Position numbers and translations under genes: made by a program. The notes beneath the pieces were generated by a model. It was given only the letters and a program-made list of their open reading frames with translations. It was not told the DNA's origin and did not search any database. This document shows, in pieces, positions 1 through 54,392 of a DNA stretch of 64,000 nt (position 1 is its first letter; every line of letters starts with the position of its first letter). The DNA comes from Dastarcus helophoroides. Lineage: Eukaryota; Arthropoda; Insecta; Coleoptera; Bothrideridae. The DNA lies in contig CM053332.1 in the NCBI GenBank assembly GCA_028583605.1, forward strand, positions 18,856,555-18,920,554. The letters run 5' to 3'.

Positions 1-179
1 ATTTTGATTTTTTTGTAAACCGCTGATTGTTCTCTCAAAAATTTCTTTATAAATATTTTGAGGCAAAAGAATTTTAGAGTCATTTTTAATTTTATCATTT
101 AAGCATTGTGAAAAAAAAGTAACACTTTTCAATTTATTTTGTTGAGAATTTCTGTGAATGTTTTAGTACTTACTTGTCG

Positions 180-279
180 GAACATTTATTAGCATTTGAG
201 TTGGATATACCAAACTGACGAGATCTAACAAGATCGAAACCGGTATTTGCTTTCCAAACTTCAAATCTAATAAATGTTC
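180..279 (+). ncRNA. Minimal type I hammerhead ribozyme, family 1 copy a
   Basis: The conserved core is CTGACGA at 215-221 and GAAA at 236-239. Stem II is GATCT (222-226) with AGATC (231-235), closed by loop AACA. Stem III is the self-complementary ACCGGT (239-244) with no loop. The cleavage site would follow A245, in a GTA triplet that obeys the NUH rule. Stem I pairs CAAA 211-214 with TTTG 246-249 and TTGG 201-204 with CCAA 254-257, then ATTTG 194-198 with CAAAT 262-266, then 13 bp of 180-192 with 267-279. A loopless palindromic stem III is expected to work in cis only poorly. Such forms are known from Penelope-like elements and cleave as dimers. Confidence 0.8.
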
Positions 280-557
280 AAACCTATTGGTCTGTGCATT
301 TATAGAATCCTTGTCTCCTAGGAACTCTCCTAGAGAGCAACCGCTTCGCTAGGTGGCAGTGTTTCAACTGTTGGTAGTTCAGCTACCTACGATTCACTAT
401 ACACGCCTGGAGGGCTGCATGTATTTGTAGTCTAGGTTTCATTCTTCCTGCATACGACATTGTTGGCGATGGCCATAGTTTCTCTATGGACCAATAGGTG
501 GTAGTACTAAAGAGTCACCCGCTTGACGCCTGTGTATGTTTTAGTACTTACTTGTCG

Positions 558-657
558 GAACATTTATTAGCATTCGAGTTGGATATACCAAACTGACGAG
601 ATCTAACAAGATCGAAACCGGTATTTGGTTTCCAAACTTCGAATCTAATAAATGTTC
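558..657 (+). ncRNA. Minimal type I hammerhead ribozyme, family 1 copy b
   Basis: Same fold as copy a: CTGACGA core, five-base-pair stem II, GAAA, palindromic ACCGGT stem III and predicted cleavage after A623. In stem I the segment ATTTG/CAAAT of copy a is ATTCG/CGAAT here. Both strands changed together and pairing is kept. The outer 13-bp stem (558-570 with 645-657) is perfect. Confidence 0.8.
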
Positions 658-686
658 AAACCTATTGGTCTGTGCATATTTATAGA

Positions 687-2139
687 GAATTTTGACTGAA
701 AGCATTATTTGAGTAACTTTACATTTTAAGTTTCGGAATATTGATTTTTTTAACTTGAGCATTGAAGTTCTATTTTTTGATTAAAATCGGTAAAGAACTC
801 AATATTTAAAAAAATTTTTCTTTTTACAAATCTTGACCTTTTTTTTAGAATCCCATGCATAAATTTGGATTATTTAATTATTTTTCAAAAATGGCAAATT
901 TTAAATTAGCAATTTGGGATTAAAATCGAATTTCCTGGGAAAAAATTTAAAAAAATTTAAGCATCTTTAAAAGAAGTTGCATAAAAAAATCAAAATTTGG
1001 AAACTTTAACTCAAATTTTTAATACTGATAATTTTAAAATGAAATACTTTTTAAAAAAGTCAATTCTTTAAAAACCTTAAGAAAATTACATTTTTAAAAA
1101 ATTATATTTTTGAAAAATTAAATTTTTAAAATTTATATTTTTAAAAAATTAAATTTTTAAAAACTGTAAATTGTAAAAAATTAGAAATTTTGAAAATGTT
1201 CCAAATTTTTAGTTGAAATTACTAAGAAAAAGGTTACAAGGTTCTCAAAAAGAGTCCAAATATTTAAAAAAATGGATATTTAAAAAAAACATCCAAAAGT
1301 TAAAAAAACACCAAAATTTTGAGAAAAGGACTAAATTTATAAAAAATGGAATTTCTGAAAAACTTAAAACTTTGAAGTTATTGGACATTTAAGCGAGTAG
1401 AAATTAAAAAAAAATTAATTTTCAAATACTTGGAAATTAAAGCAAAATTCTAAATTAAAAAAAAATCGAATTCTTCAAAAACAAAATTAAATTGGCATTT
1501 TTAAAAAATCCAAAATTTTGAAACATATTTTTCTATGATATTATTTTTAAAGGAAAGTAAAAAAGTTTTTAAATATGTAAAACTTTTGAGCAAAGCGCCA
1601 AACATAGAAAATCTCGAGATCGTTACTAAAAATTTCTTCCAATTTGAATAAATATTTTCAAATTTGAATAAATATTTTTAAGAAATTGACTCAATTTTAA
1701 TAGAAAATATCAAAATTGTCATAAAAATTAAAACTTTGTTTTAAGAAATTTATTGTAGTAATTTTGAGAAAAAATGTGAACCTTGTCAAAAATATGAGAA
1801 ATCGAAAATTTTGAAAAGAATCGAAAATGTGAATACATTCAAATTTTAATAAAAATGGAAATTTTGGAAGAGTAAAAACTTTTAGAAGTTGAAATTTGGT
1901 ATAAAATATGCAACAGAAAAGACTACTTTAAACCTTTCCAGAAAAAGTGGAAATTTTGAAAAGGTTGAACACTTTAAAATGTCGAAGTCTTTTAAAGTCC
2001 CCTCGAAATATACAAAAAAACTTTACATTCTTGAACGGCGTCGTAATTTTTTTAAAAAGATCAAACTTTTTGAAAAAATCAATTCTTTAAAAAGTAATTT
2101 CTTTAGTTTTCCAGAATTGATTTTTTTTAAGTTTTAATT
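687..2139. other. AT-rich spacer, no gene seen
   Basis: Homopolymer-rich sequence of the style AAATTTTGAAAA with no motif I can name. The frame at 1889-2137 is low-complexity and runs through the end of the long repeat. Most of this stretch is the remainder of the 5.06-kb-offset duplication. Confidence 0.6.
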
Positions 2140-3435
2140 GGTTTTTGAAAAATTCGACGCGTTCAAGAATTTAAAGCTTTTTTTATATTTCGACTTTCAA
2201 AGACTTCGACATTTTAAAGTGTCCACCGTTTCAAATTGTCCACTTTTTTCATACATTTCAACTTTTTGTCAAAACTGATGGTTTAAGGTGCAAGATTCTT
2301 TGTTTGCTGAAAATGAGATCTTTTATTTTTCAGAATACCCCCTTTTGAAATTATTGCAATTTTTTAAAAATTTTAATATTGTGAAAATTTCTGTTTTGTA
2401 ACTTTGCATTTTTGTGAAAAGGTTAATTTTAAACAGTTACGAACTTGTCTCGAAATGTTAAAATACTCTTTTTATTCACATTTTTTAACAAAATTCAAAT
2501 ATTTAAAAAGTTTACTTTTATAAACTTTTCACATTTTTATTAAAATTGTTAATATTCTCAAAAAATATTTCGACTTTCACAGACTTCGACCATTTTAAGT
2601 GTCCAACCTTTTACAAAATTTTGACTTTTTACACATTCACAACTTTTTTTTTTTCAAATCTTACTCCCCCTGCTAGGTTTAAGGTTATTCACAAAAATTT
2701 TGCGTGTTTGCTGAAAAATGAGACGTTATTATTCAGAATAACTACTTTTTTAAATTGGTTGCGATTTTTTTAAAAATTCAATATTTAAAATTTCCTATTT
2801 TGTAACCTTTTGCCATTTTTGTGAAAGGTCAATTTTAAAAGTTCACTTGTTCTCTGAAATGTTAAAAGTACTCTTTTTTATTCCACATTTTTTTAAACAA
2901 ATTTTCAATATTTAAAAGTTTTTACTTTTATAAAATTTTCATTTTTATAAATTTTAATATTCTCAAAAAATATTTCGACTTTCACAACTTCGACATTTTA
3001 AAGTGTCCAACCCTTTCAAAATTTTGTACTTTTTCAACATTACAACTTTTTTCAAAACTGCTTTTAGAGGTTTTCACAAAATTTTGGTTTTGCTGAAAAT
3101 GAAGACGTTTTATTTTCAGAATAACTCCTTTTTGAATTGGGTGGCGATTTTTTTAAAATTTCATATTTTAAAATTTTCTATTTTGTAACCTTTTGCCATT
3201 TTTGTGAAAGGTCAATTTTAAAAGTTCATTTTTTTTCGAATGTTTAAAGTACTCATTTCATTTCACATTTTTTCAACAAATTTCAATATTTAAAAACTTT
3301 TACTTTTAGAAAATTTTCTTTTTATTAAAACCTTTAATACTCTCAAAAAAATATTTACAGACTTTCAAAGGACTTCGACATTTTAAAGTGTCCAACTTTT
3401 TTCAAAATTTAGACTGTTTCAACATTACAACTTTT
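2140..3435. repeat. ~390-bp tandem repeat, about 3.5 copies
   Basis: A segment containing CTTCGACATTTTAAAGTGTCC recurs with CTTCGAC at about 2204, 2584, 2988 and 3373, giving periods of 380, 404 and 385 bp. Each unit also carries TTTGCTGAAAATGA, then an ACGTTTTATT motif and a TTTTGTAACCTTTTG motif. Short frames such as 2546-2773 and 3003-3188 are shadows of this repeat and look alike for that reason. Confidence 0.75.
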
Positions 3436-4139
3436 ATTCTTCATAATATTTTCCGGGGGGGGGTCTAATAAGGGTCTACCCATGAAGAATAAACCTATTC
3501 CTCTAACGGAAACGAACGGAAAAACTCCGGGGGGGGGGGGGGGGCAAATGGTGAGTGCTTCTAACTACCAAGCTGAATAGATTTTTAGCGGTTAGGAACA
3601 AGTAGTCCCAAGGAGCATATAATTCGACCCACAGTGTAGTTCAATGCCGGAAGGGGTATTAGCCCTCGGAGTAGTTGTTTCTTGTGGATTCTGGGCTTCA
3701 AAATATTTAAATTTTTAACACATTAAATTTTTACCACATAATTGATGATGAAACGTCTATCATGTTTAAAATTTCTTATTTTTCTTTTTTATATTTAAAA
3801 AAAAAAAAAATTATTTTTTTTTTAGGTATTTTCTTCCTCATTGTTCCCTTTCCATGTTATGCACGCTGACGAGCTCATGAGAGCGAAAACATCGATGCCA
3901 GTCTACAACCTTTTTATGTATTTTTTTATATTTTCCTAATTTATCAAAAAATAAAAACTTTTATTTTTTTCCATATCGAATTTTTGGTCTCCTATTTTTC
4001 ATTTATTACTATTCTAATGTAATAACAACCTCTTAATTTGTGACTGTCCAATGAAGTGAAGTGTTTCAATAAATTTAAATATCACGAAGTCGTATTTCAA
4101 AAACTGTTTTTAGAAATTGTCAACAACCAAAAAATTTAA
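3436..4139. other. Non-repeat island with two poly-G tracts
   Basis: This stretch differs in composition from its flanks. It has a G run at about 3450 and a 16-base G run at 3529-3544, followed by mixed-composition sequence to about 3690 and then AT-rich DNA. It may be the remnant of an inserted element, but I found no terminal repeats or coding motif. Confidence 0.4.
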
Positions 4140-5064: not shown

Positions 5065-5243
5065 ATTTTGATTTTTTTGTAAACCGCTGATTGTTCTCTC
5101 AAAAATTTCTTTATAAATATTTTGAGGCAAAAGAATTTTAGAGTCATTTTTAATTTTATCATTTAAGCATTGTGAAAAAAAAGTAACACTTTTCAATTTA
5201 TTTTGTTGAGAATTTCTGTGAATGTTTTAGTACTTACTTGTCG

Positions 5244-5342
5244 GAACATTTATTAGCATTTGAGTTGGATATACCAACTGACGAGATCTAACAAGATCGA
5301 AACCGGTATTTGCTTTCCAAACTTCAAATCTAATAAATGTTC
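5244..5342 (+). ncRNA. Hammerhead ribozyme, family 1 copy c (1-nt deletion in stem I)
   Basis: Counterpart of copy a in the duplicated segment. The catalytic core, stem II and palindromic stem III are intact. One A is missing just before CTGACGA, so the first stem I helix is CAA rather than CAAA. This is the only copy of the four with a stem I indel next to the core and may be weakened. Confidence 0.72.
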
Positions 5343-5620
5343 AAACCTATTGGTCTGTGCATTTATAGAATCCTTGTCTCCTAGGAACTCTCCTAGAGAG
5401 CAACCGCTTCGCTAGGTGGCAGTGTTTCAACTGTTGGTAGTTCAGCTACCTACGATTCACTATACACGCCTGGAGGGCTGCATGTATTTGTAGTCTAGGT
5501 TTCATTCTTCCTGCATACGACATTGTTGGCGATGGCCATAGTTTCTCTATGGACCAATAGGTGGTAGTACTAAAGAGTCACCCGCTTGACGCCTGTGTAT
5601 GTTTTAGTACTTACTTGTCG

Positions 5621-5720
5621 GAACATTTATTAGCATTCGAGTTGGATATACCAAACTGACGAGATCTAACAAGATCGAAACCGGTATTTGGTTTCCAAAC
5701 TTCGAATCTAATAAATGTTC
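5621..5720 (+). ncRNA. Hammerhead ribozyme, family 1 copy d
   Basis: Counterpart of copy b with all core bases, stem II, the palindromic stem III and the CG-type variant of stem I (ATTCG with CGAAT). The distance from copy c is 377 nt, almost the same as the 378 nt between copies a and b. Confidence 0.8.
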
Positions 5721-7777
5721 AAACCTATTGGTCTGTGCATATTTATAGAGAATTTTGACTGAAAGCATTATTTGAGTAACTTTACATTTTAAGTTTCGGA
5801 ATATTGATTTTTTAACTTGAGCATTGAAGTTCTATTTTTTGATTAAAATCGGTAAAGAACTCAATATTTAAAAAATTTTTCTTTTTACAAATCTTGACCT
5901 TTTTTTTAGAATCCCATGCATAAATTTGGATTATTTAATTATTTTTCAAAAATGGCAAATTTTAAATTAACAATTTGGGATTAAAATCGAATTTCCTGGA
6001 AAAAAATTTAAAAAAATTTGAGCATCTTTAAAAGGAGTTGCAAAAAAAATCGAAATTTGGAAACTTTAACTCAAATTTTTAATACTGATAATTTTAAAAT
6101 GAAATACTTTTTAAAAAAGTCAATTCTTTAAAAACCTTAAGAAAATTACATTTTTAAAAAATTATATTTTTGAAAAATTAAATTTTTAAAATTTATATTT
6201 TTAAAAAATTAAATTTTTAAAAACTGTAAATTGTAAAAAATTAGAAATTTTGAAAATGTTCCAAATTTTTAGTTGAAATTACTAAGAAAAAGGTTACAAG
6301 GTTCTCAAAAAGAGTCCAAATATTTAAAAAAATGGATATTTAAAAAAACATCCAAAAGTTAAAAAAACACCAAATTTTTGAGAAAAGGACTAAATTTATA
6401 AAAAATTGAATTTCTGAAAAAGTTAAAACTTTGAAGTTATTGGATATTTAAGCGAGTAGAAATTAAAAAAAAATTAATTTTCAAATACTTGGAAATTGAA
6501 GCAAAATTCTAAATTAAAAAAAAAATCGAATTCTTCAAAAACAAAATTAAATTGGCATTTTTAAAAAATCCAAAATTTTGAAACATATTTTTCTATGATA
6601 TTATTTTTAAAGGAAAGTAGAAAAGTTTTTAAATATGTAAAACTTTTGAGCAAAGCGCCAAACATATAGAAAATCTCAAGATCGTTACTAAAAATTTCTT
6701 CCAATTTGAATAAATATTTTCAAATTTGAATAAATATTTTTAAGAAATTGTCTCAATTTTAATAGAAAATATCAAAATTGTCATACAAATTAAAACTTTG
6801 TTTTAAGAAATTTATTGTAGTAATTTTGAGAAAAAATGTGTACATTGTCAAAAATATGAGAAGTCGAGATTTTCGAAAAGAATCGAAAATGTGAAGATAT
6901 TCAAATTTTGATAAAAATCGAAATTTTGTAAAAGTAAAAACTTCTAGAAGTTAAAATTTGGTATTAAATATTTAACAGAAAAGACTACTTTAAACCTTTC
7001 CAGAAAAAGTGGAAATTTTGAAATTGAACTTTTCACAAAAATTGACTTTTTGTGAAAAAACGTACAAAATAGAAATTTTAAAATATTAAAATTTGAAAAA
7101 AAATCGCAAACCAGTATCGAAAAGCAGTTGTTCTGAAAATAAAAAGTCCACATTTCTAGCAAACGTCAAAATTTAAAAAAAAAGTCCAAATTTAGAAAAA
7201 AGTGGAATATCAGAAAAAGTTGAAATTTTGAAATTATCGAACATTTTGTAATGTCATCATTTTAAAAAAGGTAGAAATTTAAACAAAAGCTTTAAATTTT
7301 CAAACGCGCAGAACTGCGAAATAAAAAAAACAAATTTTTAAAGCCAAACCTAAATCGACATTTTTAAAAAATCCAAAATTTTGAAACAGTTTGATATTTT
7401 CAATCGAAATAATTACGAAAATTGTGACGTCATATCATAGTTTATTTTCTAACACAACTTTCCAAAATATGAGTTTGGAAAGGTTTGTTATATTTAGACA
7501 AATTTTTAATTGGGATATTGGCAATAAAGAGCGTTTACGTTATTTTCTCAGCTAAAGTCGAGCATACGAGTATATAAAATTGTGATGACATTTTCAATAG
7601 AGGTAAAAACATTCAGCAAAAGTTGATATTTAAAAACAAATTGACAAAAAACAGAAATTAGGGATTTATGGGGATTGCCGAGAGAAGTGAAAACTTAAAA
7701 CTATCAGCAAAATAGTGAACATTCTGAAAAAGGTAAAATTTTGAATTGAATTGAATTGAACATTTTAAAATGTTAAA

Positions 7778-37934: not shown

Positions 37935-40450
37935 TTTTTCAGAGAAGAAGAAAATAAAAAATATGCAATGTTTCAGAGAAAGTTAAATTTTGAGAATAAA
38001 TTGAAATTTCGAGAAAAAGACGAATTAAAAAAAAACTCTGAATTTTCAGATGAATCGAATTTTGAAAAAATTGGTGAAATAATCTTGAAAGAAAAGACAA
38101 TGTCCATAAAAGTTCCAGTTTCGAGAAGAAAATTAAATGTTAAAAGGAGGTCAAAATTTCCCAAAGAAAGTCTTTAAGAAACAAAATCAAATTCTTAGAT
38201 TTGAAAACAGATAAATTTAAAAAGTAAATTTTCTACAACCTTAAAATTTCATAAAAAAAAGATGAATTACTTTTGTGAAAAAAAATTAATTTACATAAAC
38301 AGCAAATATCAAAGTTCGAAATAAAAGCTGAAATTTCAAGAAAAAGATGAATTTCGAGAAAAAGGGAGAGATTTCGAAAAAATTGAGGAGAAGAGACTTC
38401 GAAAAAATTGAGAAAAAGGAAGAGATTTCGAAAAAATTAAGAAAAAGTAAAATATTTCAAAAAAGTCGAATTTATCAAAAGTTCTCAAAAAAAGGTAAAA
38501 TTATAGAAAAAAAAACGTCGGATTTTGACAATAGATTGAAACCCAGAACAAATTAAAAACCTAAATTTTTAGACAAATTTGAATTGTTTCAAAAACTGTA
38601 AAATATCAAAAAGAGAAATTGTAAAAATAAACTGGAAGTTTAAAAAATAATATCGAACATTAAAAAAGTCAAGATTTTTCAATAAAGAAGAACAAAGTCA
38701 AATTTCAGGAAAAATTATAAGGAAAGCTCAAAATTTCGACAAAATATTTGTAATTTTTCAGAGAAATTTAAATTTTGAGAAGAAATTTGAAATTTCGAGA
38801 ACAAGACGATTAAAAAAAATCCAAATTTTCTGATAAATTCGAATTTTAAGAAAATTGCTAAAATAATTTCGAAAGAAAGAGCGAATGTCGATAAAACTTC
38901 CAGTTTCGAAAAAGGTATCGAATTTTAAAAGAAGGTTAAAATTTCCCAGAAAAAGTCGAATTTTAAGAAAAAAATCAAATTTTGAGATTTAAAAATAGAT
39001 GAATTTCGTTCGAAATAAATGCTGAAATTTGCAGAAAAGGCTTAATTTTGATAAAAAAAGATTTCGAAAAAAAAAGAATTCGTCAAAAGTTCTCAAAAAA
39101 CTAATTTTTACAATAGATTGAAATTCGTAGAACGAATTTAAAAATCTGACATGCTTAGACAAATTTAAATTTTGTAAAAAATTGTAAAATTTCAAAAAGG
39201 GAAGTTGTAATAAATTAAAAGAAAAAATTGTCGAATTTTTTCAGAAGTCGAAGTTTTTCAGAGAAGAAGAAAATAACAAATATGCAACGTTTCAGGGAAA
39301 GTTAAATTTTGAGAATAAATTGAAATTTCGAGAACAATACGAATTAAAAAAAAACTTTAAATCGAATTTTGAGAAAATTGGTGAAATAATTTCGAAAGAA
39401 AAGAAAATGTCCATAAAACTTTAAGTTTCCAGAAAAGTTTAAAATTTTAAAAGAAGGTCAAAATTTCCCAAAGAAAGTCTTTAAGAAACAAAATCAAATT
39501 CTGAGATTTGAAAACAGATGAATTTAAAAAGTAAATTTTCTACAACCTTAAAATTTCGTGAAAAAAAAATTAATTACATTTGTAAAAAAAATTAATTTAC
39601 AGAAACAGCAAATATCAAAGTTCGAAATAAAAGCTGAAATTTCAAAAAAAAAAAGCTGAATTTCGAGAAAAAGGGAGAGATTTCGAAAAACTTGGGGAAA
39701 AGAAGGAGACTTCGAAAAAATTGAGAAAAAGGAAGAGATTTCGAAAAAATTAAGAAAAAGTATAATATTTCGAAAAAGTTAAATTTATCAAAAGTTCTCG
39801 AAAAAAGGTAAAATTATAAAAAAAAACGTCGGATTTTGACAATAGATTGAGACTCGGAACAAATTAAAAACCTAAATTTTTAGACAAATTGAAACTGTTT
39901 TAAAAACTGTAAAATATCAACAAGAGAAATTGTAAAAATAAACTGGAAGTTTAAAAAAAATTGTCGAACATTAAAAAAAACGAAGTTTTTCAATAAAGAA
40001 GAAGAAAGTCAAATTTCAGGAAAAATTGTAAGGAAAGCTCAAAATTTCGACAAAAAATTTGTAATTTTCCAGAGAGATTTAAATTTTGAGAAGAAATTTG
40101 AAATTTCGAGAACAAGACGATTTTTAAAAAGTTCAAATTTTCTGATAAATTCAAATTTTGAAAAAATTGCCAATATAATTTCGAAAGAAAAGCGAATATC
40201 GATAAAACTTTCATTTTCGAAAAAAGTATTGATTTTAAAAGAAGGTTAAAATTTCCCAGAAAAAGTCAAATTTTAAGAAAAAATCAAATTTTGAGATTTA
40301 AAAATAGATGAATTTCGTTCGAAATAAACGCTGAAATTTGCAGAAAAGGCTTAACGAATTTAATAATCTGACATGCTTAGACAAATTTAAATTTTGTGAA
40401 AAATTGTAAAATTTCAAAAAGAACAATGGTAATAAATTAAAAGTTTTAAA
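37935..40450. repeat. ~1.3-kb AT-rich tandem repeat, two copies
   Basis: GTTTTTCAGAGAAGAAGAAA begins units at about 37937 and 39251 (offset 1314 bp), and internal marks such as GAAAGAAAAGACAATGTCC/GAAAAGAAAATGTCC keep the same order. A shorter half-unit pattern is also visible at 38760-39240 and 40070-40450. Frames at 37968-38177, 38347-38556, 38989-39195 and 39990-40214 are low-complexity shadows. Confidence 0.75.
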
Positions 40451-40498
40451 AAATTGTCGAACTTTTTCAGAAGTCGAAGTTTTTCAAAGAAGAAATTT

Positions 40499-40598
40499 TG
40501 GTGATGGAACAGACTGGTCCTTGGTTATCTTGAAAAATTGGAATGAAGAACTTTTCCCCTGAAACCAAGAAAGATTAAAAACACACCAAAGGTGTGTG
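40499..40598 (-). repeat. Family-2 repeat tail, copy F, at left border of the palindrome
   Basis: On the minus strand: CCTTTGGTGTGTTTTTAATC, then TTTCAGGGGAAAAGTTC, GATAACCAAGGACCAGTC and TGTTCCATCACC. The hammerhead-like 5' half is absent, and its place is taken directly by the TACGTA array. It is an inverted, almost identical copy of 53987-54086. Confidence 0.85.
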
Positions 40599-40606
40599 TA
40601 AGGTGG

Positions 40607-43600
40607 TGTACGTATGGCGTATGATGTACGTACGTATGATGTACGTATAGTGTACGTATGATGTACGTATGATGTACGTACGTATGATGTACGTATGATG
40701 TACGTACGATGAACGCATGATGTACGTATGACGTACGTATGATGTACGTGATAACGTACGTATAATGTACGTATGATGTACGTACGTAAAGACTGGGGTG
40801 CGGGGTCCGGGGTTCGACGTCCGGGGACCAAAGGCCGGCGACAGGGGTGCGGAGTCCGGCATGTGGGGTCCGAGGTCCAAGGACCGGGATCCGAAAACCA
40901 GGGTTTGGGACAGAAGACCGGGGTATTTTGTCCGGGGACCGAATACGGGGTTCGGGGACCTTAGTTCGGGGTCTGGGGACCGTGGTCCGGGGACCGGAGT
41001 CCAGGGACAGTGGTCCGGGTTGCGGAAACCGGGGTTCGGAAACCAAGGTTCGGAATCCGGGGTCCAGGGTCCGAAGTGCGGGGACTTGGGTGCGGAGGCA
41101 GGGGTCCGGGGAGCAAAGACCGGGGTCCGAAAACCAAGGTCCGAAGACCGGGGTCCATAGTCCGGGTACCGGAGGTCAAGGGTTTGCGAACCGTGGTACG
41201 GAGACCGCAGACCAAGTTCCGGCTACCGCAGTTTGGAGATTGGGGTCCAGGGTTTGGGGTCCGGGGTCCGGGGTCCGGGAACTGGGGTGCGGGGTCCGGA
41301 GTCCGAGGTCCGGGAACCGAAGTCCAGGGACCGAAGTCTAAGGCACCGATGTTCGGAAACCGGGGACCGGAGTGCTAGGACCGATGTGCGGGGTCCGGCG
41401 TTCAATGTTCCGAGGTCCAAGGACCGGGGTCCCGAAACCGGGCTCCGGGGACGGGGGTGTGGGAACCAGGGTGCGGGCACCGAGAACCGGGGTGCGGGCA
41501 TCGGGGTCCAAAGATTAGTGTCCAAAGACCGGGGACCGAGGAGCGAAGTTCATGGTCCGAGTACCAAGGTCCGGGGTCCGGGGTTTGAAGACTGTTTTTT
41601 GGAGAGTGCGGACGGAGGTCCGAGAATCGTGAACCAGGGTCCGGGGACCAGGAACCGGTGTGCGGGGACCGGGGTTCTGGGATCGGAGTCCGGGGACCAA
41701 AGGCCAGGGACCGAAATCCGGGGACCGATATCCGGAAACCAGGGACCGGGGTGCTGGGACCGGGGTGTGAGGCCTGGCGTTTGATGTCTGAGGTTCGGGG
41801 ACCGGGGTCCGGAAACCAGGGTCCGGGGTCCGAAGACTGGGGTATATGGACCAGGATCCGGAGTCTAAGGTTCGAAGACCGTGGTCCTAAGTCCGGAAAC
41901 CGTGGTTTGGGGTCCGTGGATCGTGGTTTGAGGTCCGGAAACCGGGGTCTTGTATGGCGTACGTATGATGTACGTATAATGTACGTACGATGTACTTATG
42001 GTGTACGTACGTAAGATGTACGTATGGTGTACCGTGTACGTATGGCGTACGTATGGTGTACGTATTATGTACGAATTATGTACGAATGATATACGAATGA
42101 TGTATGTACGTACGTATGATGTACGTATGGTGTACGTATGACGTACGTATGATGTACGTACGATGTACGTACGTATGATGTACTTATGGTGTACGTAGGT
42201 AAGATGTACGTATGGTGTACCGTGTACGTATGGCGTACGTATGGTGTACGTATTATGTACGAATGATGTACGAATGATATACGAATGATGTATGTACGTA
42301 CGTATGTATGATGTACGTATGGTGTACGTATGACGTACGTATGATGTACGTATGATGTACGTACGATGAACGCATGATGTGCGTATGACGTACGTATGAT
42401 GTACGTATAACGTACGTATAATGTACGTATGATGTACGTACGTACGCATGATGTACGTACGTGAAGACTGGAGTGCGAAGTTCGGGGTTCGACGTCCGGG
42501 GACCAAAGGCCGAAGACCGGGGTGCGGAGTCCGGCATGTGGGGTCCAAGGTCCAAGGACCGGGGTCCGGAAACCAGGGTTTGGGACAAAAGACCGGGGTA
42601 TTTTGTCCGGGGACCGGGTACGGAGTTTGGGGATTTTAGTTTGGGGTCTGGGGACCGTGGTCCGGGGACCGAAGTCCAAGGACCGTGGTCCGGGGTGCGA
42701 AAACCGGGGTTCGGGAACCAAGGTTCGGAATCCGGGGTCCAGGGTCCAAAGTGCGGAGACTTGGGTGCGGAGGCAGAGGTCCGAAAAGCGAAGACCGGGG
42801 TCCAAAAACTAAGGTCCGAAGGCCAAGGTCCATGGTCCAGGTACCAAGAATCAAGGGTTTGAAAACCGTGGTCCAGAGACCGCGGACCAAGTTCCGGGGT
42901 CCGCAGTTTGGAGATTGGGGTCCAGGGTTCGGGGTCCAGGGTCCGGAAACTAAAATGCGGGGTCCGGAGTCCGAGGTACGGCAACCGAAGTCCAGGGACC
43001 GAAGTCTGGGCACCGATATCTGGAAACCAGGGACCGGGGTGCTGGGACCGATGTGCGGGGTCCGGCGTTCAATGTCCGAGGTCCAAGAACCGGGGTCCGG
43101 AAACCAGGCTCCGGGGACCGTGGCCCGGATTCCGCTAACATGGGTCCGGATTCCGCTGACCGGGGTGCAGGGACCGGGGTGGGGAGACCGGAATGTGGGA
43201 ACCGGGGTGCGGGCACCGAGAACCGGGATGCGGGCATCGGGGTCCAAAGTTTAGTGTCCGGAGACCGGGGACCGAGGAGCGAAGTTCATGATACGAGTAC
43301 CACGGTCCTGGGTCCAGGGTTTGGAGACTGTTTTTTAAAGAGTGCGGACGGAGGTCCAAGAATCGTGAACCGGGGTCCGGGGACCAGGAATCGGTGTGCG
43401 ATTACCAGGGTTCTGGTATCGGGGTCCGAGGACCAAGGGCCAGGGACCGAAGTCCGGGGACCGATATCCGGAAACCGGGGACCGGGGTGCTGGGACCGGG
43501 GTGTGGGGCCCGACGTTTAATGTCTGAGGTTCGGGGACCAGGGTCCAGAAACCAGGGTCTGGGGTCCGAAGACCGGGGTATATGGACCAGGATCCGAAGT

Positions 43601-46600
43601 CTGAGGTTCGAAGACCGTAGTCCTAAGTCCGGGAACCGTGGTTTGGGGTCCGTGGACCGTGGTTTGGGGTCCGGGATGGTGTACGTACGTAAGATGTACA
43701 AATGGTGTACCGTGTACGTATGATGTACGCATGGTGTACGTATGACGTACGTATGATGTACGTATGATGTACGTACGTATGATGTACGTACGATGAACGC
43801 ATGATGTACGTATGACGTACGTATAATGTACGTATGATGTATGTACGTACGTATGATGTACCTACGTAAAGACTGGGGTGCGAAGTCCAATGTCCGACGT
43901 CCGGGGACCAAAGGCCGGCAACCGGGGTGCGGAGTCCGGCATGTTGGGCCCGAGGTACAAGGACCTGGGTCCGGAAATTAGGGTTTGGGACAGAAGACCG
44001 GGGTATTTTGTCCGGGGACCAGAGTTCAAGCAAGGACCGTCGTCCGTGGTGCGGGAACCGGGGCTCGGTAACCGGGGTTCGGAATCCGGGGTCCGGGGTC
44101 CAAAGTGCGGGATCTTGAGTGCGGGCACGAATGATATACGAATGATGTACGTACGTACATATGATGTACGTATGGTGTACGTATGATGTACGCATGGTGT
44201 ATGTATGACGTAGTGTGATGTACGTATGATGTACGTACGTATGATGTACGTATGATGTACGTACGATGAACGCATAATGTACGTATGACGTACGTGTAAT
44301 GTACGTATGATGTATGTACGTATGATGTACCTACGTAAAGACTGGGGTGCGGGGTCCAATATCCGACGTCCGGGGACCAAAGGCCGGCAACCGGGGTGCG
44401 GAGTCAGGCATGTGGGGTCCGAAGTACAAGGACCTGGGTCCGGAAACCAGGGTTTGGGAGAGAAGACCGGGTTATTTTGTCCGGGGACCGGGTACGGGGT
44501 TCGGGGATCTTAGTTCGGGGTCTGGGGACCGTGGTCCGGGGACCGGAGTCCAAGGACCGTGGTCTGGGGTGCGGGAACCGGGGTCCGGGGTTCGGAGTGC
44601 GGGGTCTTGGGTGCAGGCACAGGGGTCGGGGAAGCGAAGACCTGGGTTTAAAAACCAAGGTCCGAATACGCGTACGTATGGTATACGGACGATGTACGAA
44701 TGATGTACGTATGATGTACGTACGTACGTACGTGTGGTGTACGTATGATATACGTATGGTGCACATATGATGTACGATGATGTACGTACGTAGGTATGAT
44801 GTGCGTACGATATGTACGTATGATGTACGTACGTACGTATAATGTACGTACGTACGTATGATGTACGTATGATGTACGTATGACGTACGTATGACGTACG
44901 TATAACGTACGTATAATGTACGTATGATGTACGTACGTACGTATGATGTACGTACGTAAAGACCGGGGTGCGGGGTCCAGGGTTCGACGTCCGAGGACCA
45001 AAGGCCGGCAACCGGGGTGCGGAGTCCGGCATGTGGGGTCCGAGGTCCAAGGACCGGGGTTCGGAAACCAGGGTTTGGGACAGAAGACCGAGGTATTTTG
45101 GGACCGGGTATGGGGTTCGGGGACCTTAGTTCAGGGTCTGGGGACCGTGGTCCGGGGACCGGAGTCCAAGGACCGTAATCCGGGGTGCGGAAACCAAAGT
45201 TCGTAAACCGGGGTTTGGAATCCAGGGTCCTGGGTCCAAAGTTCGGGGACTTGGGTGCGAAAGCAGGGATCCGGGAAGCGAAGACCGGGGTCCGAAAATT
45301 AAGGTCCAAGGACCGGGGTCCATGGTCCGGGTACCGGGGGTGTAGGAACCGTAGTCCGGAGACCGCGGACCAAGTTCCGGGGACCGCAGTTTGGAGAATG
45401 GGGTCCGGGGTTTGGGGTCCGGGGTCCGTTAACTGGGGTGCGGGGTCTGGAGTCTGAGGTCCGAGAATTAAAGTCCAAAGACCGAAGTCTGGGCACCGAC
45501 GTCCGGAAACCGGGGACCGGGGTGCTGGGACCGATGTGCGGGGTTCGGCGTTTAATATCCGAGGTCTAAGGACCAGGGTCCGGAAACCAGGCTTTGGGGA
45601 CCGGGGCCCGGATTCCGCTGACGGGGGTCCAGATTTCGCTGACCGGGGTGCAGGGACCGGAGTGTGGGGATTGGGGTGTGGGAACCGGGGTGCGGGCACC
45701 GAGAACCGGGGTGCAGACACCGGGGTCCAAAGTTTAGTGTCCGGAGACCGGGGACCGAGGAGCGAAGATTATGGTCCAAGTACCAAAGTCCGGGGTCCGG
45801 GGTTTGAAGACTGTTTTTGGGAAAATGCGGACGGAGGTCCGAGAATCGTGAACCGGGGTCCAAGAACCAGGGACCGGTGTGCGGGGACCGGAGTTCTAAA
45901 ATCGGGGTCCGAGGGTCCGTGGACCGTGGTTTGGGGTCCGGGGACCAGGGTCTTGTATGGCGTACGTATGATGTACGTATGATGTACGTACGATGTACGT
46001 ATGGTGTACCGTGTACGTATGGCGTACGTATGGTGTACGTATTATGTACGAATGATGTACGAATGATATACGAATGATGTTTGTACGTACGTATGATGTA
46101 CGTATGGTGTACGTATGATGTACGCATGGTGTACGTATGACGTACGTATGATGTACGTATGATGTACGTACGTATGATGTACGTATGATGTACGTACGAT
46201 GAACGCATGATGTACGTATGACGTACGTATGATGTACGTATAACGTACGTATAATGTACATATGATGTACGTACGTATGATGTACGAACGTAAGGACTAA
46301 GGTGTGGGGTCCGGGGTTTGACGTCCGGGGACCAAAAGCCGGCAACCGGGGTGCGGAGTCCGGCATGTGGGGTCCAAGGTCCAAGGACCGGGGTCCGGAA
46401 ACCAGGGTTTGGGACAGAAGACCGGGGTATTTTGTCCGGGGGCCGGGTACGAGATTTGGGGACCTTAGTTCGGGGTCTGGGGACCGTGGTCCGGGGACCG
46501 GAGTCCAAGGACCGTGGTCTGGGGTGCGGGAACCGAAGCTCGGAAACCGGGGTTTGGAATCCGGGGTCCGGGGTTCGGAGTGCGGGGTCTTGGGTGCGGG

Positions 46601-46817
46601 CACAGGGGTCGGGGGAGCGAAGACCGGGGTTTGAAAACCAAGGTCCGAATACGAGTACGTATGATATACGTACATACGTACGTACGTGTGGTGTACGTAT
46701 GATATACGTATGGTGCACGTATGATGTACGTGCGGGGTCCGGGATTCGACGTCCGGGGACCAAAGGCCGGCAATTGAGGTGCGGAGTCCGGCATGTGGAA
46801 TCTGAGATCCAAGGACC
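40607..46817. repeat. Left arm: alternating TACGTA and GGTCC blocks
   Basis: TACGTA-type blocks (about 11-bp unit ATGATGTACGT, with TACGTACGT variants) lie at 40607-40790, 41954-42462, 43676-43870, 44130-44338, 44666-44960, 45954-46293 and 46650-46730. GC-rich blocks (degenerate units of about 7-8 bp, GGGGTCCG and GGGGACCG) fill the gaps. Full-length ones measure about 1.0-1.2 kb (40791-41953, 42463-43675, 44961-45953) and shortened ones 0.26-0.36 kb. Landmarks such as GGTATTTTGTCCGGGGACC and GACTGTTTTTT return in the same place in each full block, so block plus block is a higher-order unit of about 1.4-1.7 kb. Confidence 0.9.
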
Positions 46818-47604
46818 TCGGCCCCCGGTCTCCGGATTTCGATCCATGGTTTCCGGTCTTCATACCTCAAAGTTAGGTCCCCGAACCTTGGTCCCGGACA
46901 ACGGTCACCGGTCCCTGGAGCCTGGTCTCCAGATTTCTGTCACTGGACCCCGGACCCCGTCCCCGGTCTTCGGTTCTTGGACTTTGATTCCTGGTTCTCG
47001 GACACTGGTCCGTGGTCCCTGGACCTTAGTCCCCGGACCCCAAACTCCAGTCCTCGGTCTTTGGACTGCGGTCCTGGGACAAGGTACCGTGGATCTAGGA
47101 ATATGGACCGGGGACCAAAGTCTAAGGATTGGGTTCGGGTACCACTGATCGGGCTCCAAGGACCAGTATCCAAGGTCCATGAATCGGGACCATGGATCGG
47201 GGTCCGAAGAAGGGGGACCGAGGTCCAGGGATCAGTGAACGGGGACCGGGGACCGGGCTCCGGGCTCCGGGCACCGGTGACCGAAGGCTTAGGTCTGGGG
47301 ACCTGGATTTCGTGGACCGGGGTCCAAGGTCCGGGGACCGGGGACCGTGGATCGGGGTAAGGAGACCAAATACAAAGGTCCGGGGACCAAAAATTGGGAA
47401 ACGTGGGGACCATGGACCGTATTCCGGGGATCATGGTGCAAAGACTTGGGTGCGGAGATAAGGGGTCGGGGACCGGTCGTACATCCGTATATTATACGTA
47501 AATCGTACGTACATAAGTACGTACATCATACGTACGTTTTTTTCAAAACATGGACTTTTTGTACAAAATTACTCAGAGGTTTCAATCATTTACATCATGT
47601 AAAT
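46818..47604. other. Central region of the palindrome: polarity switches and a non-repeat spacer
   Basis: At about 46818 the plus strand changes from G-rich to C-rich units, at about 47089 back to G-rich, and at about 47478 to TACGTA units in the ACGTACATC orientation. From 47537 to 47604 there is a stretch (TTTTTTTCAAAACATGGAC, then TACTCAGAGGTTTCAATC) that belongs to neither repeat. This is the likely junction where the two arms meet and it is rearranged, not a simple hairpin loop. Confidence 0.7.
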
Positions 47605-50600
47605 TATACGTATATCATACGTAAACCATACGTACGCCATACGTACAGGGTACACCATACGTACATCTTATGTACGTACACCATAAGTACATCGTACGTA
47701 CATTATACCTATGTCATACGTACACCATACGTACGTCATACGTACACCATACGTACATACGTATGATACGTATGATGTATGTATGAAGTACATAATCATC
47801 ATACGTACATCATACGTACACGGTACACCAAACGTACATCGTACGTACATCATATGTACGTCATACGTGCATCATGCATACATCGTACGTACACCAAACT
47901 TACGTACGTTATCATACGTACATCATACGTAGGTCATATGTACATTATGCGTTCATCGTACGTACATTAAACGTACATCATACGTACGTACGTACATCAT
48001 ACCTACGTACGTACATCATACGTACGTATCGTACGCACATCATATGTACGTGCATCATACCTACGTACGTACATTATCGTACATCATACGTGCACCATAC
48101 GTATATCATACGTACACCACACGTACGTACGTACATCATACGTACATCATTCGTATATCGTACGTATATAATACGTACGCGTATTCGGACCGTGGTTTTT
48201 AAACCCCGGTCTCCGCTCCCCCGACCCCTGTGCCCGCACCCAAGACCCCGCACTCCGAACCCCGGACCCCGGATTCCGAACCCCGGTTTCCGAGCCCCGG
48301 TTCCCGCACCCCGGACCACGGTCCTTGGACTCCGGTCCCCGAACCACGGTCCCCAAACCTCGAACAAAGGTCCCCGAACCCCGTACCCGGTCTCCTGACA
48401 AAATACCCCGGTTTTCTGTTTCAAACCCTGGTTTCCGGACCCAGGTCCTTGTACCTCGGACCCCACATGCAAAACTCTGCACCCCGGTTGCCGGCCTTTG
48501 GTCCCTGAACGTCGGACATTGGACCCCGCACCCCAGTCTATACGTAGGTAAATCATACGTACATACATACATCATACGTACATTATACGTACGTCATACG
48601 TACATCATGCGTTCATCGTACGTACATCATACGTCCATCATACGTACGTACATCATACGTACATCATACGTACGTCATATGTTCACCATGCTTACATCAT
48701 ACGTACACGGTACACCATACGTACATCTTACGTACGTACACCATTAGTACATCGTACGTACATCTTACGTACGTACACCATTAGTACATCGTACGTACAT
48801 CATACGTACGCCATACAAGACCCTGGTCCCCGGACCCCAAACCACGGTCCACGGACCCCAAACCACGGTTCTTGAACTTAAGACCACGGTCTTCGAACCT
48901 CAGACTCCGGATCCTGGTCCATATACCCCGGTCTTCGGACCCCGGACCCTGGTTTTCGGACCCCGGTCCTCGAACCTCACACATCAAACGCCGGGCCTCA
49001 CACCCCGGTCCCTGGTTTCCGAATATCGGTCTCCGGACTTCGGTCCTTGGCCTTTGGTCCTTGAACCCCGATCATAGAACTTCGGTCCCCGCACACCGGT
49101 TTCAGGTCCCCGGACCCCGGTTTACGATTCTTGGACCTTTGTCCGCACTCTCCAAATAACAGTCTCCAAACCCCGGACCTTGGTACTCGGACCATAAACT
49201 TTGCTCCTCGGTCCACGGTCTCCGGACACTAAATTTTGGACCCCGGTGCCCGCACCCCGGTTCTCGGTGCCCGCACCCCGGTCCCCACACCCCGGTCCCT
49301 GCACACCGGTCAGCGGAATTTGGACCCCCGTCAGCGGAATCCAAGCCCCGGTCCCCGGAGCCTGGTTTTCGGACCCCGGTTCTTGGACCTCGGACATTGA
49401 ACGCCGGACCCCGCACATCGGTCCCAGCACCCCGGTCTTCGGTTTCCGGTCATCAATGCTCAGACTTCGGTCCCTGGACTTTGGTTCTCGGACCTCAAAC
49501 TCCAAACCCCGCACCTTAGTTCCCGGACCCTAAACCCTAAACCCTGGACCCCAATCTCCAAACTCCGGAACTTGGTCCGCGGTCTCCGAACCACGGTTTC
49601 CAAACCATCGACCCCCGGTACCCGTACCATGGACCCCGGTCTTTGGACCTTGGTTTTCGGACCCCGGTCTTCGCTACCCGGACCCCTGCCACCACACCCA
49701 AGTCCCCGCACTTTGGATTCAGGACCCCGGATTCCGAACCCCCGTTTTCCAACCCCGGTGTTCGCACCCCGCATCACGGTCCTTGAACTCCGGTCCCCGG
49801 ACCACGGTCCTTAGACCCCGAACTAAGGTCCCCAAACCCCGTACCCGGTACCTGGACAAAGTACCCCGGTCAGAAGACCGGGGTACTTTGGACAGAAGAA
49901 CAGAAGTCCCAAACCCTGGTTTCCGGACCCCGGTCCTTGGACCTCGGACCCCACATGCCGGACCTTGCATTCCGATTGCCGGCCTTTGGTCCCCGGACGT
50001 CAAACCCCGGACCCCGGACCCCGGTCTTTACGTACGTACATCATACGTACATTATACATACGTTATACGTACATCATACGTACGTCATACGTACATCATG
50101 CGTTCATCGTACGTACATCATACGTACATCATACGTACGTCATACGTGCACCATACGTACATCATACGTTTGTACGTACATCATTCGTATATCATTCGTA
50201 CATCATTTGTACATAATACGTACACCATACGTACGCCATACGTACACGGTACACCAAACGTACATCTTACGTACGTACACCATAAGTACATCGTACGTAC
50301 GTCATACGTACATCATACGTACATCATACGTACGCCATACAAGACCCCGGTCCCCGGACCCCAAACCACGGTCCACGGACCCCAAACCACGGTTCCCGGA
50401 TTTAGGACCACGGTCTTCGAACCTCAGACTCCGGATCCTGGTCCATATACCCCGGTCTTCGGACCCCGGACCCTGGTTTCCGGACCCTTGTCCCCGAACC
50501 TTAGACATCAAACGTCGAACCCCACACCCCGGTCCCAGCACCCCGGTCCCTGGTTTCCGGATATCGGTCCTTGGACTTCGGTCCCTGGCCTTTGGTCCTC

Positions 50601-53600
50601 GGACCCCGATCCCAGAACCCCGGTCCCCGCACACCAGTTCCTGGTCCCCGAACCCCGGTTCACGGTTCTCGGACCTCCGTCCGCACTCTCCAAAAAACAG
50701 TCTCTTAACCCCGGACCCAGGACCTTGGTACTCGGACCATGAACTTCGCTCCTCGGTCCCCGGTCTCCCTGCACCCCGGTCAGCGGAATCCGGACCCATG
50801 TCAGCAAAATCCGGGCCCCGATCCCCGGAGCCTGGTTTTCGGACCCCGGTCCTTGGACCTCGGACATTGAACGCCGGACCCCGCACATCGGTCCCAGCAC
50901 CCCGGTCCCTGGTTTTCAGACATCGGTGCCCAGACTTCGGTCCCTGGACTTTGGTTCCCGCACCTCGGACTCCGGACCCCGCATTTTAGTTCCCGGACCC
51001 CGGACCCCGAACCCTGGACCACAATCTTTAAACTGCAGACCCCGGAACTTGGTCCGCAGTCTCCGGACCACGGTTTCCATACCCCCAATTCTTGGTACCC
51101 GGACCATGGACCTCGATCTTCGGACTTTAGTTTTCGGACCCCAGTTTTTGCTCCCCGGACCTCTACCTCCGCACCCAAGTCCCTGCACTTTAGACCCTGG
51201 ACCCCGGATTCCAAACTCCGGTTTCCGAACCCCGGTTTTCGCACCCCGGACCACGATCCTTGGGCTCCGGTCCCCGGACCACGGTCCCTAGACCCCAAAC
51301 TAAAATCCCCGAACCCCGTACCCAGTCCCCAGACAAAATACTTCGGTCTTCTGTCCCAAACCCTGGTTTCCGGATTCCGGTCCTTGGACCTTGGACCCCA
51401 CATGCCGGACTCCGCACCCCGGCCGCCAGCCTTTGGTCCCCGGACGTCAAATTCCGGACTTTGCACCCCAGTCTTTACGTACGTACATCATATGTACGTA
51501 CGTACATCATACGTACATTATACGTACGTTATACGTACATCATACGTACGTCATACGTACATCATGCGTTCATCGTACGTACATCATACGTACATCATAC
51601 GTACGTACATCATACGTACATCATACGTACGTCATACGTACACCATACGTACATCATTCGTACATAATACGTACACCATACGTACGCCATACGTACACGG
51701 TACACCATTCGTACATCTTACGTACGTGCACCATAAGTACATCATACGTACGTACATCATACGTACATCATACGTACGTCATACGTACACCATACGTACA
51801 TCATACGTACGTACATACATCATTCGTATATCATTCGTACATCATTCGTACATAATACGTACACCATACGTACGTCATACGTACACGGTACACCATACGT
51901 ACATCTTACGTACGTACACCATAAGTACATCGTACGTACATCATACGTACATCATACGTACGCCATACAAGATCCCGGTCCCCGGACCCCAAACCACGGT
52001 TTACGGACCCCAAACCACGGTTCCCGGACTTAGGACCACGGTCTTCGAACCTCAGACTCCGGATCCTGGTCCATATACCCCGGTCTTCGGACCCCGGACC
52101 CTAGGTTCCGGACCCTGGTCCTTGGACCTCGGACCTTACATGCCGGACTCCGCACCCCGGTTGCCGGCCTTTGGTCCCCGGACGTCGAACCTTGGACCCC
52201 GCACTCCAGTCTTTACGTACGTACATCATACGTACGCACGTACATCATACGTACATTATACGTACGTTATACGTACATCATACGTACGTCATACGTACAT
52301 CATGCGTTCATCGTACGTACATCATACGTACATCATACCTACGTACATCATACGTACATTATACGTTTGTCATACGTACACCATGCGTACATCATACGTA
52401 CATTATACGTACATCATACGTACGTACGTACATCATTCGTATATCATTCGTACATCATTCGTACATAATACGTACACCATACGTACGCCATACGTACACG
52501 GTACACCATACGCACATCTTACGTACGTACACCATAAGTACATCGTACGTACATCATACGTACATTATTCGTACGCCATACAAGACCCCGGTTTCCGAAC
52601 CCCAAAATACGGTCCACGGACCCCAAACCACGGTTTCCGGACTTAGGACCACGGTCTTCGAACCTCAGACTCCGGATCCTCGTCCATATACCCCGGTCTT
52701 CGGACCCCGGACCCTGGTTTCCGGACCCCGGTCCCCGAACCTCAGACATCAAACGCCGGGCCTCACACCCCGGTGGCAGCACCCCGGTCCCTGGTTTCCG
52801 GATATCGGTCCCCGGACTTCGGTCCCTGGCCTTTGGTCCTCGGACTCCGATCCCAGAACCCCGGTCCCCGCACACCGGTTCCTGGTCCCCGGACCCCGGT
52901 TCACGATTCTCGGACCTCCGTCCGCACTCTTTAAAAAACAGTCTTCAAACCCCGGACCCCGGACCTTGGTACTCGGACCATGAACTTCGCTTCTCGGTCC
53001 CCGGTCTCCGGACACTAAACTTTGGACCCCGATGCCCGCACCCCGGTTCTCGGTGCCCGCACCCTGGTTCCCACACCCCCGTCCCCGGAGCCCGGTTTCG
53101 GGACCCCGGTCCTTGGACCTCGGACATTGAACGCCGGACCCCGCACATCGGTCTTAGCACCCCGGTCCCCGGTTTCCGGACATCGGTGCTTAGACTTCGG
53201 TCCCTGGACTTCGGTTCCCGGACCTCGGACTCCGGACCCCGCACATCAGTTCCCGGACCCCGGACTCCGAACCCTGGACCCCAATCTCCAAACTGCGGAC
53301 CCCGGAATTTTGTCCGCGGTCTCCAGACCACGGTTCCCAAACCCCCGACCCCCGGTACCCGGACCATGGACCCCGGTCTTCGGACCTTGGTTTTCGGACC
53401 CCGGTCTTTGCTCCCCGGACCCCTGCCTTCGCACCCAAGTCCCCGCACTTCGGACCCTGGACCCCGGATTCCGAACCTTGGTTTCCGAACCCCGGTTTCC
53501 GCAACCCGGACCACTGTCCCTGGACTCCGGTCCCCGGACCACGGTCCCCAGACCCCGAACTAAGGTCCCCGAACCCCGTATTCGGTCCCCGGACAAAATA

Positions 53601-53986
53601 CCCCGGTCTTCTGTCCCAAACCCTGATTTCCGGACCCCGGTCCTTGGACCTCGGACCCCACATGCCAAACTCCGCACCCCGGTCGCCGGCCTTTGGTCCC
53701 CGGACGTCGAACCCCGGACCCCGCACCCCAGTCTTTACGTACGTACATCATACGTACGTACGTACATCATACGTACGTACGTACATCATACGTACATTAT
53801 ACGTACGTTATACGTACATCATACGTACGTCATACGTACATCATGCGTTCATCGTACGTACATCATACGTACATCATACGTACGTACATCATACGTACAT
53901 CATACGTACGTCATACGTACACCATGCGTACATCATACGTACACCATACGTACATCATACGTACGTACATCACACGCCATACGTAC
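47605..53986. repeat. Right arm: the same blocks in reverse orientation
   Basis: TACGTA-type blocks (read as ACGTACATCAT) lie at 47605-48184, 48540-48817, 50029-50341, 51476-51968, 52213-52581 and 53735-53986. C-rich blocks (CGGACCCCGGTCC units) lie at 48185-48540 (short), 48818-50028, 50342-51475, 51969-52213 (short) and 52582-53734. The short blocks keep both ends of a full block but lack the middle, which points to internal deletion. All three plus-strand frames are open for long distances, giving YVHHTYIIRTS and PRTPDPGPR translations. Confidence 0.9.
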
Positions 53987-54086
53987 ACACACCTTTGGTG
54001 TGTTTTTAATCTTTCTTGGTTTCAGGGGAAAAGTTCTTCATTCCAATTTTTCAAGATAACCAAGGACCAGTCTGTTCCATCACCAA
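53987..54086 (+). repeat. Family-2 repeat tail, copy G, at right border of the palindrome
   Basis: Mirror image of copy F: CCTTTGGTGTGTTTTTAATC through CTGTTCCATCACCAAAATTT. The TACGTA array ends exactly where the tail of the family-2 repeat begins, as on the left border. Confidence 0.85.
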
Positions 54087-54392
54087 AATTTCTTCTTTGA
54101 AAAACTTCGACTTCTGAAAAAGTTCGACAATTTTTTTAAAACTTTTAATTTATTACCATTTTTTTTTGAAATTTTACAATTTTTCACAAAATTTAAATTT
54201 GTCGAAATGAAAAAAAAAATCAATGACGCTTCCCAAGTTTTCACTGTGGTCGGTTAGATTTAATTAGGGTGAGTTATGCCTTTCTAGACGGGCAAATAAA
54301 ATGGATCAAAAGGAATTTTGGTTTTTCAAAAATCACTTATTTTATATGATTGTATTCAGAAAATTGTAAATATTCCAAGAATGCTATATTAT

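Follow-up and report, generated by a model that had tools for sequence, protein, structure and literature searches.

The element at the left end of the window (the whole 64,000-nt stretch of DNA analysed here) is a metazoan retrozyme. Metazoan retrozymes are already known, and this looks like a new family of them. It is fairly probable, in our judgement, that the element is a non-autonomous member of this class which has been spread by double-ended target-primed copying of circular RNA with a Penelope-type enzyme. Most of the copies examined are inverted pairs with two fixed ends, a layout that hints at the type of enzyme responsible for their spread.

Structure of the element

Two direct repeats, 152-304 (153 bp) and 530-684 (155 bp), lie in AT-rich DNA at the window start with their first bases 378 bp apart, which bears out the repeats of about 150 bp reported in the initial annotation. 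A repeat search of the window aligns 152-304 with 530-682 at 96% identity; the repeats differ by four substitutions and one 2-nt indel. Since they abut, on both sides, an exact 8-bp repeat GAGAATTT (144-151 and 685-692, flush with the repeat boundaries), the inserted element is taken to be 152-684 (533 bp, 1.4 units). The unit is 378 nt long in the window and is present in more than one head-to-tail copy. The unit had previously been taken to be the stretch bounded by the two ribozymes; its retrozyme-like nature stands but its extent does not, the mobile unit being the 533-bp insertion. No open frame of 90 aa or more is found in it, so its description as non-coding and non-autonomous is upheld. 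The flanking repeat GAGAATTT and the duplicate at 5208-5755 were absent from the initial annotation, and the family is visible only from the genome. The features are as follows, with phase 1 defined as the first base after the ribozyme cut and with A and B denoting the two outer-end sites of the family.

144..151, no strand: left 8-bp target-site duplication GAGAATTT, exact match to 685-692
152..304, plus strand: left terminal direct repeat R1, 153 bp, partial unit
176..290, plus strand: predicted hammerhead ribozyme 1 with long stem I (fold; Rfam HH9 at 197-268, 29.1 bits)
215..245, plus strand: hammerhead core 1, with the palindrome ACCGGU as a loopless stem III; cleavage predicted after 245 (sequence, pattern)
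301..310, plus strand: RNA site B, first occurrence; one of two fixed positions for outer ends in the family (phase 56-64, converted by hand)
305..529, plus strand: internal part of the unit, no open frame of at least 90 aa
447..457, plus strand: RNA site A, the other position at which outer ends of the family lie (phase 203-213, mode 208, one at 220; converted by hand)
530..684, plus strand: right terminal direct repeat R2, 155 bp; the element end at 684 is site B, phase 58
554..668, plus strand: predicted hammerhead ribozyme 2 with full stem I (fold; Rfam HH9 at 575-646, 34.4 bits)
593..623, plus strand: hammerhead core 2, predicted cleavage after 623 (sequence, pattern)
685..692, no strand: right 8-bp target-site duplication GAGAATTT, exact match to 144-151
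5208..5755, plus strand: duplicate of the element; flanks and flanking repeats are shared, and stem I of its first hammerhead lacks one base

The duplicate sits inside a repeat of the whole locus (1-1970 against 5065-7029, 97.9% identity). Left flank and element show no substitutions and one missing base between the two locus copies, and the right flank shows 31 substitutions in 1,278 positions. As the flanks of 5208-5755 match those of 152-684 as well as the element does, an independent second insertion is ruled out and we assume one insertion that was later duplicated. The two locus copies lie about 5.06 kb from each other; a single base differs in positions 1-744 and about 3% in the rest, as if the pair had recently been evened out in part.

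A short core between two terminal direct repeats would also be expected of an LTR retrozyme or a TRIM-like element with LTRs of 153-155 bp. We regard this reading as the least probable of those considered, since the ends are CTGTG...TTATA and not TG...CA, no TGG primer site is present at 305-312, the longest purine run in 490-529 is 6, the target duplications of the family are mostly 9-15 bp and its mostly inverted layout already contradicts such a reading. Plant LTR retrozymes likewise have a non-coding core flanked by terminal direct repeats with two hammerheads, but they differ in having a type III hammerhead, a 4-bp duplication, a primer binding site (PBS) and polypurine tract (PPT), and a larger size (PMC4918200, accessible part). 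None of these plant-type marks (LTRs with PBS and PPT, type III hammerhead, 4-bp duplication) is found in the window element.

Hammerhead ribozymes

Both cores consist of CTGACGA, GATCT, AACA, AGATC, GAA, ACCGGT and A, in this order, at 215-245 and 593-623. These positions place the predicted cleavage sites after 245 and after 623, 378 nt apart. Each core has a five-pair stem II with an AACA loop and lies within a long imperfect stem I. Sequence and fold thus confirm what had been noticed earlier, namely CTGACGA, the five-pair stem II, ACCGGT followed by A and the long stem I in both repeats, together with the spacing of the cleavage sites. The core with a perfect stem II occurs at five places in the window, four of them in the element and its duplicate and one at 3866, while 100 first-order Markov shuffles gave 0.01 matches per window. 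The hammerhead-like core at 3866-3903 is isolated, with a perfect stem II and without a convincing stem I.

An Rfam search had been proposed as a check of the hammerheads, and its outcome is mixed. No match reaches the gathering score anywhere in the window. With a lax threshold on positions 1-1000, RF02275 (Hammerhead_HH9) aligns end to end with both hammerheads, at 575-646 (34.4 bits, E 1.1e-6) and at 197-268 (29.1 bits, E 5.4e-5), both scores being below the gathering value of 52 for this model. The HH9 alignment includes the stem I internal loop, and the element differs in having no stem III loop.

The fold energy of the hammerhead region 165-290 is 5.0 SD below that of dinucleotide shuffles; the whole unit folds 3 SD better than its shuffles as a circle and 5 SD better as a line. 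Because the palindrome ACCGGU cannot close a loop, stem III should require a partner, either another molecule or another copy within one transcript. In the predicted single-molecule fold the catalytic CUG is paired with CGG. A double hammerhead is predicted to be nearly as stable as the best dimer fold for two copies of repeat 2 (-83.1 vs -83.4 kcal/mol) and for two copies of repeat 1 (-68.7 vs -70.2 kcal/mol), with values of -69.9 vs -75.9 kcal/mol for the mixed pair, in whose constrained fold stem I also pairs across the two copies. The dimer-type hammerhead with a minimal stem III suggested earlier is therefore retained as the predicted form, with a loopless palindrome. We infer that the ribozymes cleave and that 378-nt RNA circles may be formed.

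Newt and axolotl hammerheads with a weak palindromic stem III, expected to need a dimer, are known to act in this way (PMC7229834, in the part accessible), and dimer action has been proposed for a palindromic stem III in Aedes (PMC3088659, accessible part). The newt, axolotl and Aedes hammerheads have other sequences, whereas here the six nucleotides ACCGGU leave no loop.

One base pair of stem I differs between the repeats in a compensated manner (T197-A263 vs C575-G641, a chance of about 0.6%). We rejected this change as evidence of selection because the family has C-G there and both changes resemble CpG decay. The position is G-C at phases 18/331 in 48 of 50 family rows.

The family in the genome

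The source genome (538,885,228 bases, or 539 Mb, in 50 contigs) contains 2,456 exact copies of the 31-nt core, 1,209 forward and 1,247 reverse, and the reversed core, used as a control, has no match in the whole genome. The further copies anticipated by the initial annotation thus exist in large number. With the element as a DNA query at least 106 matches were obtained (the best 40 of 2,469 candidates being scored), and copies are present on each of contigs C1 to C13 among the matches listed.

Insertions were analysed in two sets. Set 1, the best-match set, comprises 38 regions, that is, all places listed by the DNA query outside the window. Set 2, the positional set, comprises 32 of 72 regions on contig C1, taken in positional order from the first 100 core places with the middle 40 left out. 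Pieces were mapped to one real unit, from locus L057. Eighty clusters were mapped and 75 were clear of cuts: 35 of 38 in set 1 (3 cut or with N) and 40 of 42 in set 2 (2 cut). Because one locus, C1:7136 kb, was sampled twice (L059 in one set, L094 in the other), the 75 clusters represent 74 distinct ones. Between consecutive cores, 71 complete units were found in 70 loci plus the window, 50 of them distinct. Locus L071 carries at 1434-3074 five sense pieces that share an internal junction (phase 131 to 28), which would fit tandem amplification of a deleted unit.

Layout of the insertions

The predominant arrangement is head-to-head, antisense followed by sense (54 of 75 clear clusters). Tail-to-tail arrangement (sense followed by antisense) occurs in 0 of 75, and the remaining clusters are of a single orientation (20/75) or three-part (1/75). 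Set 1 has 30 antisense-sense, 3 antisense and 2 sense clusters (n=35), and set 2 has 24 antisense-sense, 9 antisense, 6 sense and 1 antisense-sense-antisense (n=40).

The outer ends gather at two places in the unit, site A (phase 203-213, mode 208, one at 220) and site B (phase 56-64, mode 60). All 43 antisense-sense clusters with a target duplication of at least 9 bp (29/29 in set 1, 14/14 in set 2; 42 distinct loci) have one A end and one B end. Set 1 had already yielded the two sites when set 2 was retrieved; the widths accepted for them (A 198-222, B 52-70) were settled once both sets had been mapped. Without the duplication filter the rule holds for 29 of 30 antisense-sense clusters in set 1 and 19 of 24 in set 2; the six of 54 with an end outside A and B all lack a duplication of 9 bp or more. 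Among the 50 clusters of any orientation with such a duplication, 45 are A+B, one is A+A and four have an end at neither site.

Target duplications of at least 9 bp flank 50 of 75 clusters (31/35 in set 1, 19/40 in set 2), with a mode of 12, and the same search performed 60-180 bp outside the clusters finds at least 9 bp in 16 of 375 cases. The duplications are 76% AT and the flanks 70%. Flank bases match the RNA beyond site B above expectation at the first two positions (0.87, 0.62), a figure to be read with the fact that choosing the longest duplication favours such matches.

Since the family is mostly head-to-head in the two sets, the window copy, with its single orientation, represents a minority form. 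Its right end is at site B (phase 58) and its left end (phase 286) is at neither A nor B. The 8-bp duplication is weak when taken alone, as 27 of 375 control searches give 8 bp or more, and the right end at site B is the stronger sign of insertion.

These data bear on whether the family moves as RNA at all. Satellite DNA with a relic hammerhead, spread by unequal exchange, would account for the duplication of the window copy along with its locus and for the five pieces with one shared junction in L071. It would not account for fixed ends and target duplications at 50 of 75 clusters, nor for the presence of copies on each of contigs C1 to C13 among the matches listed, and we consider it very improbable.

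A LINE could have inserted the same retrozyme RNA by ordinary target-primed copying combined with twin priming, which also gives an inverted head-to-head orientation. Twin priming yields only a minority of products, and its second site varies, whereas head-to-head insertions are the majority here and both of their sites are fixed; moreover, no poly-A or simple tail was seen at the cluster ends inspected. Some fragments in the window appear to be LINE-like; they have no Pfam match. Duplications of 9-15 bp do fit LINEs, and the accessible part of PMC4918200 likens the 15-bp duplications of Nematostella repeats to those of LINEs. On balance we regard insertion by a LINE as unlikely, and priming from both DNA ends by a Penelope-type enzyme is preferred.

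Inner junctions and arms

Inverted copies could also arise from a single cDNA by self-priming or a hairpin turn-round, in line with the antisense-template idea put forward for Penelope (PMC3846280, accessible part). This would produce the head-to-head layout, and 7 of 58 antisense-sense junctions do have arms meeting within 10 nt of the same phase, where 3.2 are expected. The other 51 of 58 join positions further apart, and the outer ends are both at fixed yet different sites, so this route was already disfavoured and seems to us improbable. Shared bases, 0-6 in number, were found at 40 of 58 junctions. The junction positions and shared bases fit two separately primed cDNAs that were joined afterwards. 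Inner cDNA ends occur all round the circle, with a somewhat higher density at phases 241-340 and few at 121-140 and 221-240.

For the 41 loci whose arms overlap sufficiently, median divergence is 0.8% between the arms of a locus vs 1.9% between loci. When the antisense arm is compared with all sense arms, that of its own locus ranks first in only 16 of 41 loci, and 12 of the 16 are ties. Judged by sequence, this similarity agrees with one template RNA per insertion and does not prove it.

Sites A and B in the predicted RNA fold

When the reference unit is folded as a circle, B (48-62) is predicted to pair with A (197-210), a small internal loop separating two parts of the helix. The A-B pair probability is 0.93-0.98 in the linear ensemble of this unit, and of 61,075 site pairs with a separation of 30 or more, only 540 show facing to this degree. 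Among the 47 distinct units with both motifs, the pairing is kept in the best circular fold of 35 and missing in 12. Covariation cannot test it because the family is too uniform and the pairing hardly varies.

Penelope-like elements

The initial annotation had proposed a partner Penelope-like reverse transcriptase, and the genome does contain one in many copies: a search for GIY-YIG uncovered a 417-aa frame that combines an RVT_1 with a GIY-YIG domain and belongs to a Penelope-like element. Among the best 100 of 5,509 candidate matches, open frames reach 814 aa, and a hand count finds nine opposed pairs within 3 kb, all antisense-sense. The protein has 225 relatives; among the 120 listed, those with a species name are insects, including several beetles. 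A Penelope-like frame of 780 aa lies at G000:C8:18826054-18827268, about 29 kb to the left of the window.

One Penelope insertion, the inverted pair at 739-3294 of L097, was examined base by base at both ends. It has a 15-bp duplication and a 35-nt tail at one end only, features published for such elements (PMC3846280, PMC11167929, the former at least in its accessible part). Its end sites are 84 and 119 nt after an ATG. As judged from this one copy, the retrozyme insertions share the Penelope layout: head-to-head orientation, different ends and target duplication. The same layout is described for rotifer Penelope elements (PMC3846280, accessible part).

The Penelope protein of a lizard cuts and extends both DNA strands and has two start sites with a tail between them, the commonest start being 111-118 bp into the frame (PMC11167929). 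In vitro no strand difference in its start site was seen (PMC11167929), whereas the two ends of regular retrozyme insertions differ.

Retrozyme sites A and B show no significant likeness to the Penelope end sites of L097 (p 0.09 to 0.94 and 0.10 to 0.84). Start sites common to both elements were therefore rejected for this one copy, with p of at least 0.09 in each comparison. Because the likeness is not significant, the Penelope machinery is deduced from layout and presence and not from sequence, and a link between the Penelope-like element and the retrozyme insertions may be presumed on these grounds. LINEs or Penelope-like elements were considered as possible helpers of animal retrozymes in a 2020 study (PMC7229834, accessible part).

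A dispersed motif of the form CTCT-CTGAAGATG-stem II-GAAACGCGTT-AGAG was observed in the window at 7786, 8805, 9809, 31315, 58087 and 63264 on the plus strand and at 62800, 62845 and 63237 on the minus strand. By analogy it resembles minimal Penelope-type hammerheads, with a palindromic stem III ACGCGU and an ATG inside the core. Most copies are degraded, and the tentative assignment follows the published Penelope layout. Rfam gives no hammerhead match at these copies at E 1.

Proposed mechanism

A transcript of at least two units would be cut by hammerheads that pair via the palindrome ACCGGU, releasing RNAs of 378-379 nt, which a host ligase may close into circles by analogy with published retrozymes. 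A Penelope-type reverse transcriptase-endonuclease, presumably acting in trans, would make a staggered cut of about 12 bp in AT-rich DNA. Of the two DNA ends, one could then prime at site A of the retrozyme RNA and the other at site B, two sites that lie opposite one another in the predicted fold. Each cDNA would run a variable distance round the circle, and the inner ends would be joined, often with a few shared bases. The expected product is a target duplication, an antisense multimer, a sense multimer and the second target duplication; this layout is the one observed, and the steps leading to it are our reconstruction. The window copy, ending at site B on one side and at neither site on the other, would be one of the minority products.

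We further speculate that the insertion of metazoan retrozymes necessarily proceeds by double-ended, target-primed copying of a single circular RNA. With its two fixed start sites on the opposing strands of one helix, the RNA would offer a two-fold platform to a dimeric Penelope-type reverse transcriptase. Each half of the enzyme would take hold of one end of the staggered double-strand break, so that every regular insertion receives one A end and one B end. We hold this more specific form tentatively, as a real possibility that falls somewhat short of an even chance.

The rule (head-to-head orientation, one A and one B end, a duplication of about 12 bp) is a record of the insertion reaction kept by a family of thousands of cores. 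The rule restricts the candidates to machinery able to prime at two defined RNA sites from both DNA ends, and the exact sites are testable with purified protein. It may also help to explain why Penelope-like copies can carry a tail at only one end.

Relation to known elements

Metazoan non-LTR retrozymes (PMC7229834, accessible part) share with the present family a type I hammerhead, a non-coding unit of about 170-400 nt with GC below 50%, genomic multimers, a target duplication of over 4 bp, the lack of LTR, PBS and PPT, a highly self-paired RNA and the coexistence of Penelope-like elements. The window element accordingly has the type I motif with the full catalytic core and head-to-tail units free of LTR, PBS, PPT and coding sequence, and its mobility is evident from dispersed copies with target-site duplications. 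Known retrozyme copies are described as tandem in the accessible parts of PMC7229834, PMC7761336, PMC4918200 and PMC11722881, whereas those found here are mostly head-to-head inverted with two fixed, different outer ends. No head-to-head or inverted layout of retrozyme insertions was found in the retrozyme literature searched, which covers the accessible parts of these sources and few of the subscription papers.

Penelope-like elements (PMC3846280, accessible part; PMC11167929) resemble the family in their partial tandems, head-to-head inverted copies, target duplications of 8-10 bp, two start sites of reverse transcription with an optional tail between them and a minimal type I hammerhead. 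They encode a reverse transcriptase with GIY-YIG, whereas the element found here has no protein. Their tail is 30-40 bp; the retrozyme start sites are 148 nt apart on the circle, on opposite strands of the predicted helix.

Other observations

The strict core pattern has no match in the viral contigs searched. The loose pattern matches 17 of these contigs, four of them with at least four stem II pairs (L001, L004, L007 and L012). No convincing stem I was seen by eye in any, and these contigs were rejected as relatives, being unrelated. Rfam finds no hammerhead at the gathering score in L001, L004, L007, L012 and L009. Three of the contigs (L004, L007 and L012) contain a CTGATGAG-stem-CGAAACCGGT motif with good stem II pairing, possibly representing other ribozyme types or chance.

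No Pol III A-box/B-box pair was found, and 72 of 500 shuffles have one. Nine frames of the window compared with Pfam matched no family. The block at 40000-56000 is GC-rich (about 0.5) in AT-rich surroundings, has long mechanical frames of repeated peptides and looks like a satellite.
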